From positions 62,001 through 126,000 of the forward strand of contig NZ_NKHK02000002.1 of NCBI RefSeq assembly GCF_002224245.2: DNA of 64,000 bases. Direction: 5' to 3'. Both the position numbers and the translations under genes were made by a program. Below, one piece after another: positions 38,240 to 46,630 of this stretch. The stretch's first letter is position 1. Each line of letters begins with the position of its first letter. Under the pieces are notes generated by a model that saw only the letters and a list, made by a program, of their open reading frames with translations, did not search any database and had not been told where the DNA came from. This stretch comes from Moraxella sp. VT-16-12. Lineage in GTDB: Bacteria; Pseudomonadota; Gammaproteobacteria; Pseudomonadales; Moraxellaceae.

Positions 38240-38261
38240 AGCCCCATTTTAGGGGCTTTTT
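38240..38261 (+). terminator. Intrinsic terminator overlapping a convergent gene end
   Basis: AGCCCC pairs with GGGGCT around ATTTTA, followed by TTTT. It ends the fdxA-lpxB-fabR run and overlaps the last codons of the convergent DUF5691 gene. Confidence 0.8.
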
Positions 38262-39727
38262 AACGGCTCTAATAAGGCATTTAACGTCAGCGTTTGTAAT
38301 GCAGGGTCAGTTTTATCCACCCCAAGCTCATATAGGGCATTTAGACAATCTTTGGCGGTGCTTTGATTAACCATCAGTCCCAAAGCCAAAATCTGCTCAC
38401 CAAGACTGCCTGTGTTAATATAACCACCATCTTTTTCTTGCCACTGTTTGATGTTGTGTGCCAATTTTTTATAAGAAGTGGTTACTTGCAACGCCTTAAA
38501 ACCCATATCAAAAGTATCTGGACTAATCCCAATCAAATAAGCAAAATTTTTACCCTTTAAAAAATTTTTATGGGCAAATTCTTGCCTGATGGACAGTGGC
38601 AATCTGGCACGCACCAATCCCCAATAATACAGATGATTTTCCTTCAATACGATTTTTATCAAATCATCGGCAATGTCTTCAAGCTCATCATCGCTAAGCA
38701 GTCCAATCACACGTTCGCTTAACACTTGATTATAAGAGCCATATATGTGGTGTTTGGTATGATGATGAAAATCCCATGCCAAGAAAAATTCCTTTAAAGA
38801 TAAGTTAAATTTTTTGGCAAGGTCAAATAAATTAACTTTTTGTAAATTATCATAACGAGTTTCACGTTGTTTGTTGTTTTTGGTGCTTTTAAAAGCAATG
38901 CCACTTGCCCCAAATTCTAACTCATCAAATAATTCATCAGCAAGCCCATCTTGCTCACCATAAACGCCAAGCCGAGCCAGCAAGCGTTTGGCTTCATCTT
39001 TGACCTTTTGGGAGCGGTCTTTTAACAAACTTTCCAAAAACTCTTTATCATCATCAGACAGCCCCACCGCCAGCACCGCCACCAAATCAAGGCGTTTTTC
39101 GGCAGGCTCTTTGGGGGCAAACTGAGCAATCAAATCAAGGGCAAATTTGGGATTGGTACGCCGCAACTCTTTTAATAAACGCAGACGGCTGGATGGATAC
39201 CACTGCTCCCAATTATCAGCGGTCAATATCTCATCATCAGGCACAACCTGATTATGATAGCCATCGACCCAAGCACACCACGACAAATAATCGCTGGGCA
39301 ATTCACCTTCAAAATACTCATGATAATTTTGGTTACCATCAAGTTTACTTAGCATGAATTTGGGTGGCAGCCACACCGTTGGTGGCACGCTGTATCCACG
39401 CTCATCAATCATCATCAGCGTACGCACCACATAAACCAACTGATTATGTGCCAAAACTTGCCTTGCCAAACGCTGTAAATGACTAGGCAACGCAGGTTTA
39501 TTTAATATTGGCAAAGGCGGTGTGTGTGTCAGTGGGCTGTTTGGTGCTTGATTTATCATCATCTCATCAAACTGCGATAACAATGCAATTTGTGCCAGTG
39601 TGGTGTGTGGCGTAGATAATGCAATCGTGTTTAGCTCTTGGGGCAGATTGTCCGCCATCAAGCCATCATTGCTTATCATCAAACGTGCATAAACATCATC
39701 TATCAGGCGTTTGTCTAGATTTAGCAT
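38249..39727 (-). CDS. DUF5691-family protein, partner of the SWIM gene
   Basis: This 492-residue, largely helical soluble protein resembles the DUF5691 proteins found beside SWIM zinc-finger genes. In the middle it has HEAT-like segments (for example LRLLKELRRTNPKFALDLI, LSDDDKEFLESLLKDRSQKV). No enzyme motif is visible. The ATG at 39727 overlaps the SWIM gene stop (ATGCTAA), so translation is coupled. In other bacteria this pair usually lies with MoxR-type AAA and VWA-domain genes, which are missing here. The biochemical role is unknown. Confidence 0.75.
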   Translation of the reverse strand: MLNLDKRLIDDVYARLMISNDGLMADNLPQELNTIALSTPHTTLAQIALLSQFDEMMINQAPNSPLTHTPPLPILNKPALPSHLQRLARQVLAHNQLVYVVRTLMMIDERGYSVPPTVWLPPKFMLSKLDGNQNYHEYFEGELPSDYLSWCAWVDGYHNQVVPDDEILTADNWEQWYPSSRLRLLKELRRTNPKFALDLIAQFAPKEPAEKRLDLVAVLAVGLSDDDKEFLESLLKDRSQKVKDEAKRLLARLGVYGEQDGLADELFDELEFGASGIAFKSTKNNKQRETRYDNLQKVNLFDLAKKFNLSLKEFFLAWDFHHHTKHHIYGSYNQVLSERVIGLLSDDELEDIADDLIKIVLKENHLYYWGLVRARLPLSIRQEFAHKNFLKGKNFAYLIGISPDTFDMGFKALQVTTSYKKLAHNIKQWQEKDGGYINTGSLGEQILALGLMVNQSTAKDCLNALYELGVDKTDPALQTLTLNALLEPLKSP

Positions 39728-41190
39728 GAAATTAACCCCCATTGACTTTGTACACTCAGCAGCTCGCCTGCCATGCCATCCCACAACACAAAAGCACATA
39801 TGATATCAACACCTTGGATAAGGGCAGGTATTTGGCTGTTTTTTAATAAAACCGTCTCATCATGACCAACATACCAAAACCGCTTGTCCTTGTCTTGACC
39901 AATTTGCCCTGCCCCAAGCACATAAAGCATATCACCCGCCCAAGGCAATTTGGCACGCTGTTTGGCATAAGCGGTGTATAAATCATCATCAGCTTTGGCA
40001 TGACTTAGGTTTTGCACATCAAATTCTTGGGCAGGCTGAATGTTGACATTGGGGTCATAGTACATTTGGCTAGATTGATGAGTGGTCTGCACTGTCTCAA
40101 AAAATGCACGGTAAGGCACAACGCTTGGGTAGTACATCAGTTTGCCCGTCATATAAACACCCAACTGCGGAGTATGTCTGATGCCTGATGTGGGGTGATA
40201 AAAATCTTGCAACATGGCAGTACAAGGTGTCTGCTCGCCATCTTTGTCAGTCATTTTTGCCAAAAAAGTCTCTTGGCTGACAAGACCGTCTCGGCGTGTA
40301 TAAGTACGCTCGCCCACCACTTGCCACACGCCCATCACGCTTAGGGTGTCAGGGCTATTTATCAGCACATCTTTATCTTCGGCTTTGATGATGGTACGGC
40401 GAACATCAGGGTCATCAGGGTTTTGTTGCCATGCTTTTATCAACAAATACCACCGCCCAAACTCACCAAGCACACGATTTATCCGATAGGCTTTGGGCGT
40501 ATTTAATAAAATCGCCGGCAACTCATCCACCATAGATGCCAAGCCACTTGCTTTTGCATCCACCAACCGAGAAGCTCCTTGACGACACCGCTCGTGCATA
40601 TTATCAAAAAACGCACCCAGCCCCAGATGGATTTGGTCATCAAGCCATGTGATAAACTCTTGCAGTCCTGTACTGATTTGTGCGTCCGTATTGGCTTTGG
40701 TGGTTTGGCTGCGTTTTTGGGCAGCAGCTTGTTTTTTGGGGTCGCTGTCTTTGGCTGTTGTGTCGGTGTCAATGTCAGTTAAAGCAATGGATTTTTTGGC
40801 TTTGGGCGTGCTGTCTTGATTGTCAGTTTGGCCGTCGGTTGGGGTGTCTTTTTTGGTCTTTCGTCTTCTGCCTAGCCAATCAGACACCCATTGTGGGGCA
40901 GTCGCTTCAACAAATACAGAGCTGTCTGACACATATCGCCACATCAAAGCTAGGGCGTGTTTACAAGGGAATTTGCGAGATGGGCAAGTGCATTTATAAC
41001 CTGTGTCCGCCACGTCCACCACAACATAATAAGGCTTTGAGCCAGAACCTTGGCATTCCCCCCAAGCGGTGTGTGTGCTTGGGCAAAATCCTTGACCTTG
41101 CCATTTATTTGCTGATAGCAGTTTTTTGGCAGAAGACAAAGATGCTTGGTCTGGGGCAATGTCTTGTATTTTTTGTAAAGATAAGGTCAT
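39721..41190 (-). CDS. SWIM zinc-finger protein
   Basis: This 489-residue protein has an N-terminal SWIM domain, the CxC-x6-CxH motif CTCPSRKFPCKH at C67, C69, C76 and H78. SWIM domains bind DNA or proteins. Residues 110-175 are a low-complexity Lys/Thr/Asp-rich linker (TPTDGQTDNQDSTPKAKK and similar). The C-terminal half is a globular domain without recognised motifs. It leads a two-gene operon with DUF5691 and is divergent, across 224 bases, from the ATP-grasp gene of the ter-like cluster. Confidence 0.82.
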   Translation of the reverse strand: MTLSLQKIQDIAPDQASLSSAKKLLSANKWQGQGFCPSTHTAWGECQGSGSKPYYVVVDVADTGYKCTCPSRKFPCKHALALMWRYVSDSSVFVEATAPQWVSDWLGRRRKTKKDTPTDGQTDNQDSTPKAKKSIALTDIDTDTTAKDSDPKKQAAAQKRSQTTKANTDAQISTGLQEFITWLDDQIHLGLGAFFDNMHERCRQGASRLVDAKASGLASMVDELPAILLNTPKAYRINRVLGEFGRWYLLIKAWQQNPDDPDVRRTIIKAEDKDVLINSPDTLSVMGVWQVVGERTYTRRDGLVSQETFLAKMTDKDGEQTPCTAMLQDFYHPTSGIRHTPQLGVYMTGKLMYYPSVVPYRAFFETVQTTHQSSQMYYDPNVNIQPAQEFDVQNLSHAKADDDLYTAYAKQRAKLPWAGDMLYVLGAGQIGQDKDKRFWYVGHDETVLLKNSQIPALIQGVDIICAFVLWDGMAGELLSVQSQWGLISC

Positions 41191-41234: not shown

Positions 41235-41414
41235 ACTGCCTTATTGTAGCTGAATTTAATGGCATTTGAAATAGCAAGCATGAGCCTTTACGCCATTTAG
41301 CTCACATTTAAAACATCTGCTTGCCACGCCAAACACGACAAGCATTCCGCCAAAATCATCACCACAAAACACCCATCTCATGCTAAAATACACCATCTAA
41401 ATTTGGTGATAAAT

Positions 41415-42443
41415 ATGACTTGTACACTTTGGCTTGCCGAAGCCCAATCTAGCTTGCGTGATATGTTGCTGTCTTTACAAAATGCAAAAGACAAACATCG
41501 CTTGCACCTTATCGCAAGCCACCGCCACGACCGCCCAGAAATCCTATCTGTCGCTGACACGGCTATGACTGAGCCTTCTGATGACAGTCGTGTGTCATGG
41601 GTGGTACAAAACGCCATCGCTCACGGCGTATCGGTACTGCTGACAGGACGTAACGGGGCAGATTATGAACGCCATCGTGATGAGCTTGACCGTCATGGCG
41701 TGCGTCTTTTGACAGGGGCGACAAACCGCCAAACCCTACTAGATATTGATGATAAATTTACATTTAGCCAAATTTGCAAAAAACACGACATACCTGTTGC
41801 CCATGCTTGGCGGTTTGATAATTTTGATGAGCTGACCGATTTATTAGCCCAGCACCAAAACACACCGCTGTGCGTCAAGCCTGTGCATGGCATTTTTGCC
41901 GAAGGGTTTTGGGTTTTAGACAATGCTGATGGTGGCACCGACCCTTTTTATCATCTGTATCGCACCGAAACCAAACGCATTCATACCGACCAGTTTGTTT
42001 ATGCTTATCAGCACAGCAAACTTATCAAAGACAAAGCCATGCTTTTGATGCCCTACTTATCAGGACAAGAATACTCTGTTGATGTGGTGTGTGAGCGTGG
42101 CGAAGTGCTGGCAGCCATCACTCGCAAAAAAGTAGGCAGCGTGCAACACATTGGCTATGAGCCAGCCGTCATGGAGATAGTGATACCGCTTATCAAAGCC
42201 TTTGGTTGTGATGGGATTGTCAGCGTACAAACACGTGCTGATGGCGATGGCAATCATCATGTGTTGGAGATTAACACTCGCCCATCAGGGGGCATTGGTT
42301 ATACTGTGCATAGCGGTTTGGATTTGACGGTATTGGGGCTAATGTATTTTGCAGGACTGACCGACAAACCTAGCTTAACAGACAGCATTGCCAGTATCAC
42401 GCCTTGTCAGGTTCGCCCTTTGATGACTTCTGTGATGATTTAA
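41415..42443 (+). CDS. ATP-grasp ligase of a ter-type biosynthetic cluster
   Basis: This 342-residue protein has a short N-terminal alpha/beta domain and an ATP-grasp fold. Visible motifs are the lysine strand LCVKPVHGIFAEGFW (near residue 157), the linker-strand MPYLSGQEYSVDV, and the Mg-binding VLEINTRPSGGIGYT (near residue 293). It resembles the ATP-grasp ligases encoded beside ter genes, which are thought to join an amino or acid group to a phosphoribosyl-derived product. The ATG at 41415 is preferred; an in-frame TTG and GTG lie just upstream. It leads the five-gene run. Confidence 0.85.
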   Translation: MTCTLWLAEAQSSLRDMLLSLQNAKDKHRLHLIASHRHDRPEILSVADTAMTEPSDDSRVSWVVQNAIAHGVSVLLTGRNGADYERHRDELDRHGVRLLTGATNRQTLLDIDDKFTFSQICKKHDIPVAHAWRFDNFDELTDLLAQHQNTPLCVKPVHGIFAEGFWVLDNADGGTDPFYHLYRTETKRIHTDQFVYAYQHSKLIKDKAMLLMPYLSGQEYSVDVVCERGEVLAAITRKKVGSVQHIGYEPAVMEIVIPLIKAFGCDGIVSVQTRADGDGNHHVLEINTRPSGGIGYTVHSGLDLTVLGLMYFAGLTDKPSLTDSIASITPCQVRPLMTSVMI

Positions 42444-42487
42444 TGAATAAAAACGCCCAAAAGCAGGCTTGCCATTAGGAAAAAAAG

Positions 42488-43648
42488 ATGACCACCAAGC
42501 ACCACCGTGTCCACCTAAGCCGTGGCATACTTGATTTGACCTATCAAAGCGACAGTTTTGCCTTAGATGAGCTGCTTGATTTTGCTGAGCGTATCAACCC
42601 AAAACGTGCGTTTTTGTTTGTATCAAAAGTGCTGGGTCGCCACATTCCTGTTGCCCCAAGCAGCATGCGAGCAGCATTTGAAACCTTGGCACATCAAATC
42701 CCTGACCACTTACCAGAGCCGATTTTGGTGGTTGGCATGGCAGAGACGGCGGTTGGGCTGTCGGCAGGCGTTCATCAAACCTTACAAAAACGCTACCCAA
42801 ACGCCCTACTGCTCAACTCCACCCGCCACGCCCAAAACGCCCCACTACTGACGACATTTAGCGAAGAACATAGCCACGCCAGCACACATTTGATATACCA
42901 AAGCGATGATGATGTCATCAATGGGCAACTTTTGGCAAGCAAAACCTTGATTATGGTTGATGATGAAGCCAGTACTGGTAAAACTTGCCAAAACCTTATC
43001 ACCGCCCTTATCCAAGCAGGGCTAAGCCACATACAGCAGGTGCATTTGGCAACGCTGGTGGATTGGTCATTGGCACAAAGCACGCCATCGCTCTTTGATG
43101 ATGTGGCATTTTATCGTCATCATCTGCTGTGTGGCAGTTGGCAATGGACAACCACAAACGACAAAACCGTTACCATGCCTGATGTTGCCACCACCAAAGC
43201 AGGCAGTCAGCCCATTTATCCACTGCCATCATGGGGACGCACACCCACTTTGGATAGCACAACTGGCATAGACAGCTTATGGCAGGCTTTGCCGTTTTCG
43301 CCTGATAAGTTTGTCAGCAAAAAGGTGTTGGTGCTCGGCAGTAACGAATTTGTGTGGCTAGCGTTTTTGGTGGCAGAACGCCTTGAACAAAAAGGGGTAT
43401 CGGTCAAATTTGCGTCCTTGACACGCTCACCCATTGCCCAAGGCACAGCGATACGCCACCGCTTGTCGTTTTATGATAATTATGGGCTGGGCATGACCAA
43501 CTTTGTGTATAATGTGGATTTTGATGAATGGGACTTGGTGGCACTGTGCATAGAGACACCGCCAGATGGCGTAGATGAGCTTTGGCAACACCCCAAAGTC
43601 GCCATCATCAGCCCCTTTTGCTCTGCTAGCCCTTTGGAAAAACTTTGA
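42488..43648 (+). CDS. Phosphoribosyltransferase-TRSP protein of the ter-type cluster
   Basis: The 386-residue protein has an N-terminal PRTase fold (about 20-215) with the PRPP-binding loop TLIMVDDEASTGKT near residues 158-171. The VVGMAETAVGLSAG loop is typical of the PRTase_2 group. The C-terminal part (about 250-386), with KVLVLGSNEFVWLAFLVAE and RSPIAQGTAI, fits the TRSP domain found fused to these PRTases in ter gene neighbourhoods. It should act on PRPP and an unknown base-like substrate. Its stop overlaps the next start (TGATG). Confidence 0.85.
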   Translation: MTTKHHRVHLSRGILDLTYQSDSFALDELLDFAERINPKRAFLFVSKVLGRHIPVAPSSMRAAFETLAHQIPDHLPEPILVVGMAETAVGLSAGVHQTLQKRYPNALLLNSTRHAQNAPLLTTFSEEHSHASTHLIYQSDDDVINGQLLASKTLIMVDDEASTGKTCQNLITALIQAGLSHIQQVHLATLVDWSLAQSTPSLFDDVAFYRHHLLCGSWQWTTTNDKTVTMPDVATTKAGSQPIYPLPSWGRTPTLDSTTGIDSLWQALPFSPDKFVSKKVLVLGSNEFVWLAFLVAERLEQKGVSVKFASLTRSPIAQGTAIRHRLSFYDNYGLGMTNFVYNVDFDEWDLVALCIETPPDGVDELWQHPKVAIISPFCSASPLEKL

Positions 43649-44466
43649 TGTATTATGCTGATTATCTAAGCCAAGCGACCATCAGCCAGCCCTACGCTCT
43701 GATGGATTTGGACGACACCCTGTTTCAAACCAAACGTAAACTGCCTGCCACGGACAAAGTGCTCATTTGTGCCAGTGTCAATAAACAAGGCGAGCCACTA
43801 AGTTTTTTTACACAAAAACAAGCCAGCTTTTTTCATTGGCTGTCTGCCCATACCACGCTCATTCCCATCACCGCCAGAGACACCACCGAAATCCAAAGGG
43901 TCAAACTGCCCTTTGATGATTTTAAAGTTCTTACGCATGGGGCGGTGATTTTAGATAAAGACAATCAGCCCAATCACGCATGGCAAACCCACATCAAACA
44001 AAAGCTCAAAGCCGAGCAAACCACCCTACGCACCATCGCTCGCCTGCTAGATGACATCAATGGCTTTGAAAGTAGCCTACTTGGCAAAACCGCTCTGAGT
44101 ATCACGCCACATACAGAAAATTTTGATGGTGAAAATTTGACGGTTTATTTGGCGGTCAAACATAACCAAAAAAAACATCATGTCTTGGAGACATTGGCAG
44201 AAAGACTGATGTATGAGCTGCCTGATGGGTTTTATGTTCATCACAACGCCAACAATCTGGCGGTTTTGCCTGATTTTGTACACAAACGACACGCCGTCTA
44301 CTTTTTAATGCAAAATCACTTTATCAAAGAGCGACCTGTTTTTGGGTTTGGTGATAGCTTAGCGGATTTGCCGTTTTTAAGACTGCTGGACTGGTATGGC
44401 ACGCCAAACAAAGGACAGCTACATGACAACATTGGACAACTTTTATGGGAAAGCGACCATGAATGA
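43648..44466 (+). CDS. HAD-family hydrolase of the ter-type cluster
   Basis: The 272-residue HAD phosphatase has motif I LMDLDDTLFQ (near residues 17-26) with both catalytic aspartates. Motif II is a threonine in IPITARDT, a lysine follows in the cap or core region, and motif IV is FGFGDSLADLPFL. The arrangement fits a Cof-type small-molecule phosphatase. In a PRTase pathway it would remove the 5' phosphate of a nucleotide-like intermediate; that role is inferred. It is translationally coupled to both neighbours. Confidence 0.85.
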   Translation: MYYADYLSQATISQPYALMDLDDTLFQTKRKLPATDKVLICASVNKQGEPLSFFTQKQASFFHWLSAHTTLIPITARDTTEIQRVKLPFDDFKVLTHGAVILDKDNQPNHAWQTHIKQKLKAEQTTLRTIARLLDDINGFESSLLGKTALSITPHTENFDGENLTVYLAVKHNQKKHHVLETLAERLMYELPDGFYVHHNANNLAVLPDFVHKRHAVYFLMQNHFIKERPVFGFGDSLADLPFLRLLDWYGTPNKGQLHDNIGQLLWESDHE

Positions 44467-45577
44467 TGGATTTAGTGGCAGTTATTTGCCTGATGATGTG
44501 TGTTTTTTATTGACACGCCTAGACAAAGCGGACGTCCAAAGCATTGACCCTGTACAAAAAGAAGCACTCATCCAGTCAGGCAAACGCCATTATTCACAAA
44601 TGCTCACCCTAGAAACGCCCATCAGCGACACTCATCACGCCATTTATCAGCACGCTCTGACAGAATATCTGCCACGCACAGCAGCAGGCATTCATAGACT
44701 GGCACATACGCTGTATGATACCTTTAAATACCAAGATAAGCCTTTGATTTTGGTGAGTTTGGTGCGTGCAGGCGTGCCAGTTGGGGTGCTTTTAAAACGT
44801 GCGTTGAGCGACCCAAACGCATCTTATCATCGTCCTGTCATCCACTATGGTGTCAGTATCATCAGAGATAAAGGCATTGACCAGTTGGCACTGGCACACA
44901 TCACCCAAAAGCACCCTGACTGTCCGATTGTGTTTGTTGATGGCTGGACTGGCAAAGGGGCGATTTTTGGGGAATTAAAACACAGTTTGACACAGTTTTG
45001 TGCGCAGTATCCCCATACCAAAAACCAGCTTTTTCACCAAGGTTGTGATGTCATTCCCTTAGTGGTGCTGTCTGACCCTGCTGGCGTGGCGTGGCTGTCT
45101 GATGGCACAGATGACTGGCTGATTCCTTCATCATTACTAAATAGCACCATCTCTGGCTTGGTGTCTCGCACTTTGTATCGCACAGGTGAGTTTCATGGCT
45201 GTGTGTATTATAATGAATTTACCCACATTGATGAAAGTCTGCGTTTTGTCAATCAAGTAGACGCACACCGACAAACGCTCGGTAAGGCTTGCCTGCTCCC
45301 CACCCAATCATCACCACGTTTTGCCACACGCTCGCTGATTGATAATATCGCCAAAGCCTTTGCCATTGATAATGACAACCGCATCAAACCCACCATCGCC
45401 GAAGCCACGCGTGCCATCATGAGACGACAGCCCCAATGCGTGCTGATTGACACAAACAGCCAGCACAGTGCCGATACATCTCTGCTACGCCATTTGTGTG
45501 AGCAAAAACACATTCCCATTTTGTATCAGGACATTTATCCTTATCAAGCCATGACCATCATCCAAAAACGCAGCTAA
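44459..45577 (+). CDS. StiP-like PRTase_1 protein with C-terminal PELOTA-like domain
   Basis: This 372-residue protein resembles those annotated as 'cysteine protease StiP', whose core is a PRTase-like fold. Phosphate-loop-like segments LVRAGVPVGVLLKRAL (near residue 84) and IVFVDGWTGKGAIFGEL (near residue 140) are visible. The C-terminal 90 residues (about 285-372) form a small alpha/beta domain with IKPTIAEATRAIMRR and a VLID strand, like the PELOTA (L7Ae-type) RNA-binding domain. The true start is the ATG at 44459, which overlaps the HAD stop by eight bases. Whether it is a transferase or a protease is not settled by sequence. Confidence 0.82.
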   Translation: MNDGFSGSYLPDDVCFLLTRLDKADVQSIDPVQKEALIQSGKRHYSQMLTLETPISDTHHAIYQHALTEYLPRTAAGIHRLAHTLYDTFKYQDKPLILVSLVRAGVPVGVLLKRALSDPNASYHRPVIHYGVSIIRDKGIDQLALAHITQKHPDCPIVFVDGWTGKGAIFGELKHSLTQFCAQYPHTKNQLFHQGCDVIPLVVLSDPAGVAWLSDGTDDWLIPSSLLNSTISGLVSRTLYRTGEFHGCVYYNEFTHIDESLRFVNQVDAHRQTLGKACLLPTQSSPRFATRSLIDNIAKAFAIDNDNRIKPTIAEATRAIMRRQPQCVLIDTNSQHSADTSLLRHLCEQKHIPILYQDIYPYQAMTIIQKRS

Positions 45578-45589
45578 GGAAAGTTTGCC

Positions 45590-46546
45590 ATGACCCCAAT
45601 TATCAATCTACCTAGCCATCGCATCAGTGCTTTACCGCCCCCACGTTTGCACCCTTATCATCTGGGGGCAAGTTTGTACATGCCTGCCACTCGCACAGAC
45701 ATTTGGCAAATCATCACTCGCCAAAAAATCCCCACCATTCACAGTATCATCATCTGCCTAGAAGACGCTGTGCATGAAGCGGATTTGCCCGTTGCTCTTG
45801 ATAACATCAAAACTTTGCTACAAACTTGGCATGACAGCCCACCAAAAAATCGCCCCTTGGTGTTTATCCGACCACGCCACGCCAATATGCTAAGACAACT
45901 AAGTGAGTTTGTGCACATTGATTATATCGATGGTTTTGTTTTGCCCAAAGTGGACATGGTCAGCCTTGCTGATTGGCGATATGCCTGTCAAAATCTCAGC
46001 AAGGCACATTTTATCATGCCAACTTTGGAGACGGCTTTGGTGTTTGGGGCAACCCATAATCAGGAGCTGGCGATGGCACTAAGTGAAGGTTTTGACCAAG
46101 AGATTTTGGCGGTGCGTGTTGGTGGCAATGATTTGTTGGCGTGTTTGCGTATGCGGCGACTACCCAACGTTACTTTATACCAATCACCCCTAGGCACGCT
46201 GCTGTACCGTTTGCTTGGGATTTTTGTGCCACATGGTTTTTATTTGTCATCGCCTGTTTTTGAGTATTTGGATAAGCCTGAGTTGTTTAAGCAAGAACTG
46301 TGTCAAGATGTGGCACTTGGTTTGGTCGGCAAAACCGTCATTCACCCCAGCCAAATTGATACGGTGATTCAAGCCTTTAAAGTAAGTAGCACCGATTATG
46401 CCCAAGCCTGTGCCATCTTATCCAAAGATGCCAAAGCGGTCTTTAAACAAGACAACACCATGTTAGAGCCTGCCACCCATCAGGCGTGGGCAAGGCAAGT
46501 GATGGCTCGTAAAGACGTGTTTGGGCTGGTGGCGTCAAATCCGTAG
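45590..46546 (+). CDS. CitE-like HpcH/HpaI aldolase/citrate-lyase family protein of the ter-type cluster
   Basis: This 318-residue TIM-barrel lyase-like protein has the conserved IICLEDAVHEAD (metal and substrate acid residues near 57-68). RPRHAN and LAVRVGGNDLLA are also visible, and HPSQID lies near the C-terminus, all as in CitE/malyl-CoA lyase relatives. It is the last gene of the five, 12 bases after the StiP-like gene, with AAGGAAAG upstream. In the ter-linked set this enzyme is proposed to make or break a C-C bond in the metabolite. A terminator follows. Confidence 0.84.
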   Translation: MTPIINLPSHRISALPPPRLHPYHLGASLYMPATRTDIWQIITRQKIPTIHSIIICLEDAVHEADLPVALDNIKTLLQTWHDSPPKNRPLVFIRPRHANMLRQLSEFVHIDYIDGFVLPKVDMVSLADWRYACQNLSKAHFIMPTLETALVFGATHNQELAMALSEGFDQEILAVRVGGNDLLACLRMRRLPNVTLYQSPLGTLLYRLLGIFVPHGFYLSSPVFEYLDKPELFKQELCQDVALGLVGKTVIHPSQIDTVIQAFKVSSTDYAQACAILSKDAKAVFKQDNTMLEPATHQAWARQVMARKDVFGLVASNP

Positions 46547-46602: not shown

Positions 46603-46630
46603 AAATGCAAGTTTTGTCTTGCATTTTTTT
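46603..46630 (+). terminator. Intrinsic terminator of the ter-type cluster
   Basis: AAATGCAAG pairs with CTTGCATTT around TTTTGT and continues into TTTT. It closes the 41415-46546 operon. Confidence 0.87.

Follow-up and report, generated by a model that had tools for sequence, protein, structure and literature searches.

A Ter-associated biosynthetic module was reportedly predicted by Anantharaman, Iyer and Aravind in 2012. In work on jumbo phages, Ter is described as nucleoside/nucleotide biosynthesis (PRTases and HAD) combined with TerB/TerD sensors and TerC (PMC7824862). The ter region of Klebsiella has a two-part layout, with the biosynthetic part lying opposite terZABCDEF, and the supply of terZ-F in trans confers tellurite resistance on E. 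coli, hence the module is dispensable for such resistance (PMC8115787). The Klebsiella terC gene in turn affects zinc, manganese and phage resistance (PMC12054061). Experimental studies of the five enzymes of the module did not turn up in literature searches.

The window analysed here is a 64-kb stretch of DNA (G000:C22:62001-126000) from a 2.15-Mb draft genome that is 99.99% complete. It carries an operon whose five families and gene order are those of the Klebsiella plasmid pKP22-Vir (NZ_CP154296), and the operon's proteins are about 34-45% identical to Klebsiella and Pseudomonas plasmid proteins. However, on the Klebsiella plasmid the module is divergent from the adjoining ter, whereas here module and ter are located on different contigs, and TerB and TerA, searched by tblastn with the Klebsiella proteins, were not seen in the ter locus of this genome (contig C55). 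The closest linked relatives are found in Psychrobacter, with the five genes about 50-60% identical and in the same order, with a trypsin-like gene inserted in some; in Psychrobacter and other Moraxellaceae loci ter is linked within about 10-15 kb, unlike here. The module itself is known already; here it is unlinked from ter, and its chemistry is predicted.

The operon consists of five co-directional intact ORFs on the plus strand at 41415-46546, each scoring above the curated Pfam cut-off for its named family. The original prediction of a Ter-type biosynthetic set is thus borne out, with PRTase_2-TRSP, StiP-PELOTA_1 and C-C_Bond_Lyase all matching where PRTase_2/TRSP, PRTase_1/PELOTA and CitE-like families had been proposed. 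The features are as follows:

41380-41390, plus strand: candidate extended -10 element ATGCTAAAATA upstream of the operon, a consensus match in a conserved block aligned with congeneric loci L019 and L020
41415-42443, plus strand: ATP-grasp ligase (ATPgrasp_Ter, PF15632), Pfam 116 bits against a cut-off of 29.1
42488-43648, plus strand: PRTase_2-TRSP phosphoribosyltransferase, Pfam PRTase_2 185.6 against 28.8 and TRSP 59 against 25
43648-44466, plus strand: HAD-IIB/Cof-like phosphatase, Pfam Hydrolase_3 29.4 bits against a cut-off of 20.9
44459-45577, plus strand: StiP (type I PRTase-like)-PELOTA_1, Pfam StiP 272.5 against 28.7 and PELOTA_1 74.4 against 25
45590-46546, plus strand: CitE/HpcH-like C-C bond lyase (C-C_Bond_Lyase, PF15617), Pfam 322.5 against a cut-off of 28.4
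46603-46626, plus strand: intrinsic-terminator-like hairpin at the operon end, a consensus match with a 9-pair stem followed by the T run TTTTATTGTC

The ATP-grasp and PRTase_2 genes are separated by 44 bp, the PRTase_2 stop and the HAD start overlap as TGATG (HAD start ATG at 43648, alternative TTG at 43645), the HAD and StiP genes overlap by 8 bp if StiP begins at ATG 44459, and 12 bp lie between the StiP and the CitE-like lyase genes. ATG 44459 is the likely StiP start, near that of the Klebsiella protein, within an ORF that opens at 44396. As read from the sequence, this spacing is that of a single operon. The claim that the genes are expressed as a unit is supported by these tight gaps and overlaps, while the shared terminator is a consensus match and not a measured transcript. 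The order ATPgrasp-PRTase_2-HAD-StiP-CitE was found to be conserved upon comparison with Klebsiella and with other Moraxellaceae genera, in some of which a gene is inserted or the ATP-grasp gene is displaced. A search of the five proteins against NCBIfam gave sub-threshold matches only, and PADLOC run on seven proteins gave no match. The GC content of the operon is 47.4% versus 43.9% for the window, and the neighbours sampled across the window (Omp85, M50 protease, LpxD, ThiI, polyphosphate kinase and RecJ) are of ordinary chromosomal kinds, hence no obvious mobile element carries the operon. The neighbours named originally are present on the 5' side as a divergent SWIM/DUF5691 pair (window 38249-41190), which shares its upstream region with the operon, and on the 3' side as a small lipoprotein-like ORF with no Pfam match; the sulfate-transporter-like genes that follow were named by reading the sequence. 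The SWIM/DUF5691 pair also stands beside the operon in the two congeners examined and is absent from this position in other genera; it was rejected as a component of the system, as it adjoins the module in the window's genus only.

Own-genome searches with family models revealed that the genome is not devoid of ter. Within the 64-kb window no TerD was found, as observed originally, but genome-wide there are six matches to TerD (PF02342), five in the first 12 kb of contig C55, where they share a ter locus with TerC, and an orphan on C33:

C55:634-11721: own ter locus with terD, terC (DUF475/TerC), terD, terF (TerD-vWA), AIM24, terD, LemA, M48 peptidase, trypsin-like, NYN-OST-HTH-TerD

The module on C22 is therefore not adjacent to ter, and the same genome carries six TerD matches, TerC and TerF; C22 and C55 are separate contigs of a draft assembly, which fix no distance. 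The cluster that had been described as free-standing is physically unlinked from ter, but terD, terC and terF are retained elsewhere in the genome, which is most of what had been named originally as refuting it. No match to TelA (PF05816), a frequent but inconstant partner whose absence was not taken as defining for the module, was obtained in this genome. Near the C55 ter locus there is also a DUF4132/DUF7737 gene. The orphan TerD-like gene (L008 9047-9748, G000:C33) adjoins a membrane protein gene, and lone weak TerD matches of similar strength are present in many genomes of the genus without canonical ter. Common control of the two loci, the other half of that refuting condition, may exist but is not established by a crude operator search, as visual alignment and a k-mer test of the module and ter upstream regions gave no convincing shared operator. 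An 18-mer with a score below all 100 Markov shuffles is not claimed as such, because the sequences are homologous within each group, and shorter words were unremarkable.

Co-inheritance of module and ter was observed among 149 Moraxellaceae genomes, with canonical TerD defined as E below 1e-60. PRTase_2 was above cut-off in 59 of the 149, and all 59 carry canonical TerD, unlinked ones included, while the 83 genomes that lack canonical TerD all lack PRTase_2 too. Canonical TerD was present in seven of the 90 genomes without PRTase_2, two of the seven being incomplete assemblies. Of 397 genomes sampled across the phylum, 15 have StiP above cut-off, and 13 of these have TerD versus 19 of the 382 others; the two StiP genomes without TerD are G339 and G499. 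Fisher tests on such counts are extreme, but their P-values should not be read at face value because the genomes are related and the counts are not independent events. Among 80 loci fetched with the StiP profile, 72 have ter genes at most 10 kb away; the remaining eight comprise five with TerD elsewhere in the genome, one from Moraxella boevrei with a scattered arrangement, and two from TerD-less genomes. As candidate ter-less loci, L056, L061, L063, L072 and L091 were rejected, since their genomes carry TerD, and L066 (Moraxella boevrei) was rejected, since its genome has TerD.

The locus in the window is thus probably the standard five-enzyme Ter-associated module in an operon of its own, unlinked from ter on another contig, with both loci acting in trans. 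The pathway is relocated, not released from ter. Counting against a reading in trans are the seven Moraxellaceae with canonical ter and no PRTase_2, and the operator search. The suggestion that the cluster is free-standing and separates the metabolite from tellurite resistance is not supported, as ter is in the same genome and the module never occurs without canonical TerD among the Moraxellaceae sampled.

A related alternative is that in this clade the operon functions on its own, and that it separated from ter because the metabolite acquired a new use. In favour of this are the physical unlinking seen in two genera and the ter-less reduced cassettes of Rhizobium, Mesorhizobium and Paraburkholderia, given which part of the chemistry can do without ter. 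However, it is improbable given that canonical TerD is kept in each of the 59 module-bearing Moraxellaceae, including every unlinked one, and that this locus has kept all five enzymes, in contrast to the ter-less cassettes, which lack a nearby ATP-grasp or CitE.

These reduced cassettes lie outside the window and are the nearest to the free-standing version hoped for originally. In bean-nodulating Rhizobium (R. etli p42d) and in Mesorhizobium amorphae, two PRTases and a HAD of families common with the operon are found, whereas the operon here has all five. The three-gene cassette PRTase_2-TRSP, StiP-PELOTA and HAD was located at L039 8643-11899, L097 7062-10478 and L134 13753-17009 (R. etli p42d), and carriers of PRTase_2, StiP and HAD include Mesorhizobium amorphae (L097), Paraburkholderia mimosarum (L085, a short contig), G339 and G499. 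The cassette occurs in Rhizobium and Mesorhizobium symbionts and probably in Paraburkholderia symbionts too. No TerD was found in those genomes tested that carry it, nor ATP-grasp or CitE beside it in the fetched neighbourhoods. The StiP of G339 is 100% identical to that on the R. etli symbiosis plasmid p42d and matches 33 plasmids at 99% or more, for most of which Phaseolus vulgaris is the listed host. The p42d cassette is flanked by a tyrosinase gene on one side and by type III secretion genes on the other. A minimal core of two PRTases and a HAD phosphatase is suggested by the ter-less rhizobial cassette. Tentatively, and with the balance leaning somewhat the other way, this core may be a self-contained system for a nucleoside-like metabolite independent of ter, whose full form acts with ter in trans and whose reduced ter-free form was recruited onto the symbiosis plasmids of bacteria that nodulate legumes, in R. 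etli close to type III secretion genes.

Comparison of Moraxellaceae neighbourhoods, as had been proposed, placed the module beside ter in most module-bearing genera (groups g5, g8, g9, which is Psychrobacter by inference, g10, g12 and g15) and unlinked from it in the window's genus g1 (G000, G025 and G103) and in g7. The relatives G006 and G033 have module and terD on the same contig, at a distance of hundreds of kilobases. The g7 genomes G050 and G056 have PRTase_2 alone, HAD-StiP-CitE together and ATP-grasp elsewhere, with every part kept; in G056, ATP-grasp is next to terC, HAD-StiP-CitE is about 36 kb off and PRTase_2 about 105 kb off. This ATP-grasp gene lies directly 5' of terC on the same strand (L135, G056:C2:848000-862000). 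In genus g5 (L036 and L037; G004 and G020), the best ATP-grasp match lies amid ter genes, and the other four module genes are several kb away. A tree of PRTase_2, StiP and CitE, with few taxa and a weak root, groups g1 with G050/G056 and G006/G033/G042 with Psychrobacter, from which linkage would have been lost at least two times, or lost once and then regained.

That the operon is a decaying, functionless remnant in this genome is very improbable: its distribution in genus g1 is patchy, with PRTase_2 above cut-off in only three sampled genomes, G000 among them, but none of the five frames is disrupted, their catalytic motifs are conserved, and two congeners share the locus at 58-96% protein identity. 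The ATP-grasp motif EINTRPSGG is at 42267-42293, with E285, N287 and R289 invariant in a 20-sequence alignment. PRTase_2 has a PRPP loop of classical form, VDDEASTGKT, at 42956-42985, with D158, D159, E160, T163, G164 and T166 invariant in a 34-sequence alignment, and its AlphaFold model (pLDDT 89.9) has APRT, XPRT and PyrR as best PDB matches by Foldseek. HAD contains DLDDTLFQT and GFGDSLADL, whose catalytic residues are invariant in a 4-sequence alignment. The CitE-like lyase carries putative metal-site motifs PTLETA and GGNDL, with E147 and D181 invariant in a 28-sequence alignment, and its profile matches CitE and malyl-CoA lyase structures. Sequence profiles of PRTase_2 and StiP retrieved no solved PDB relatives.

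StiP contains a PP-loop-like SLVRAGVPVG and a PRPP-loop-like FVDGWTGKGA, largely invariant in a 35-sequence alignment, and its AlphaFold model (pLDDT 90.9) resembles HGPRT in the N-domain and L7Ae in the C-domain (Foldseek). The TM-scores to HGPRT are low, 0.2-0.25 by query length and about 0.4 by target, hence it is the PRPP-like loop in combination with the fold that supports the PRTase assignment. The PRPP-like loop is degenerate, with DG in place of the two acidic residues of classical PRTases, which makes catalysis by StiP uncertain. The predicted models support a type I phosphoribosyltransferase fold for both PRTase_2 and StiP. Least probable of all is that StiP is a cysteine protease and the operon partly proteolytic, as product names in Pfam and plasmid records and the trypsin-like genes adjoining the module in some relatives might suggest, since no catalytic cysteine is evident, with no Cys invariant among the 35 StiP sequences, and HGPRT and L7Ae head the structural matches, none of the 50 listed being a cysteine protease, which argues that the current database name is misleading.

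For the relocated module acting with ter in trans, PRTase_2-TRSP and StiP-PELOTA would attach PRPP-derived ribose 5-phosphate to a base-like acceptor, HAD would strip the phosphate to yield a nucleoside-like product, and the ATP-grasp ligase and the CitE-like lyase, in either direction of the latter, would build or trim an acyl/aminoacyl part. TerD/TerF with the TerC membrane complex would sense or use the product as a stress signal or cofactor. In lineages where module and ter occupy separate loci, each with an operon of its own, clean single-locus deletions are possible. At the end of the genome's own ter locus (L007 634-2112, G000:C55), a protein that fuses an NYN nuclease, OST-HTH/LOTUS and TerD is encoded, which suggests an RNA-processing output of the Ter system.
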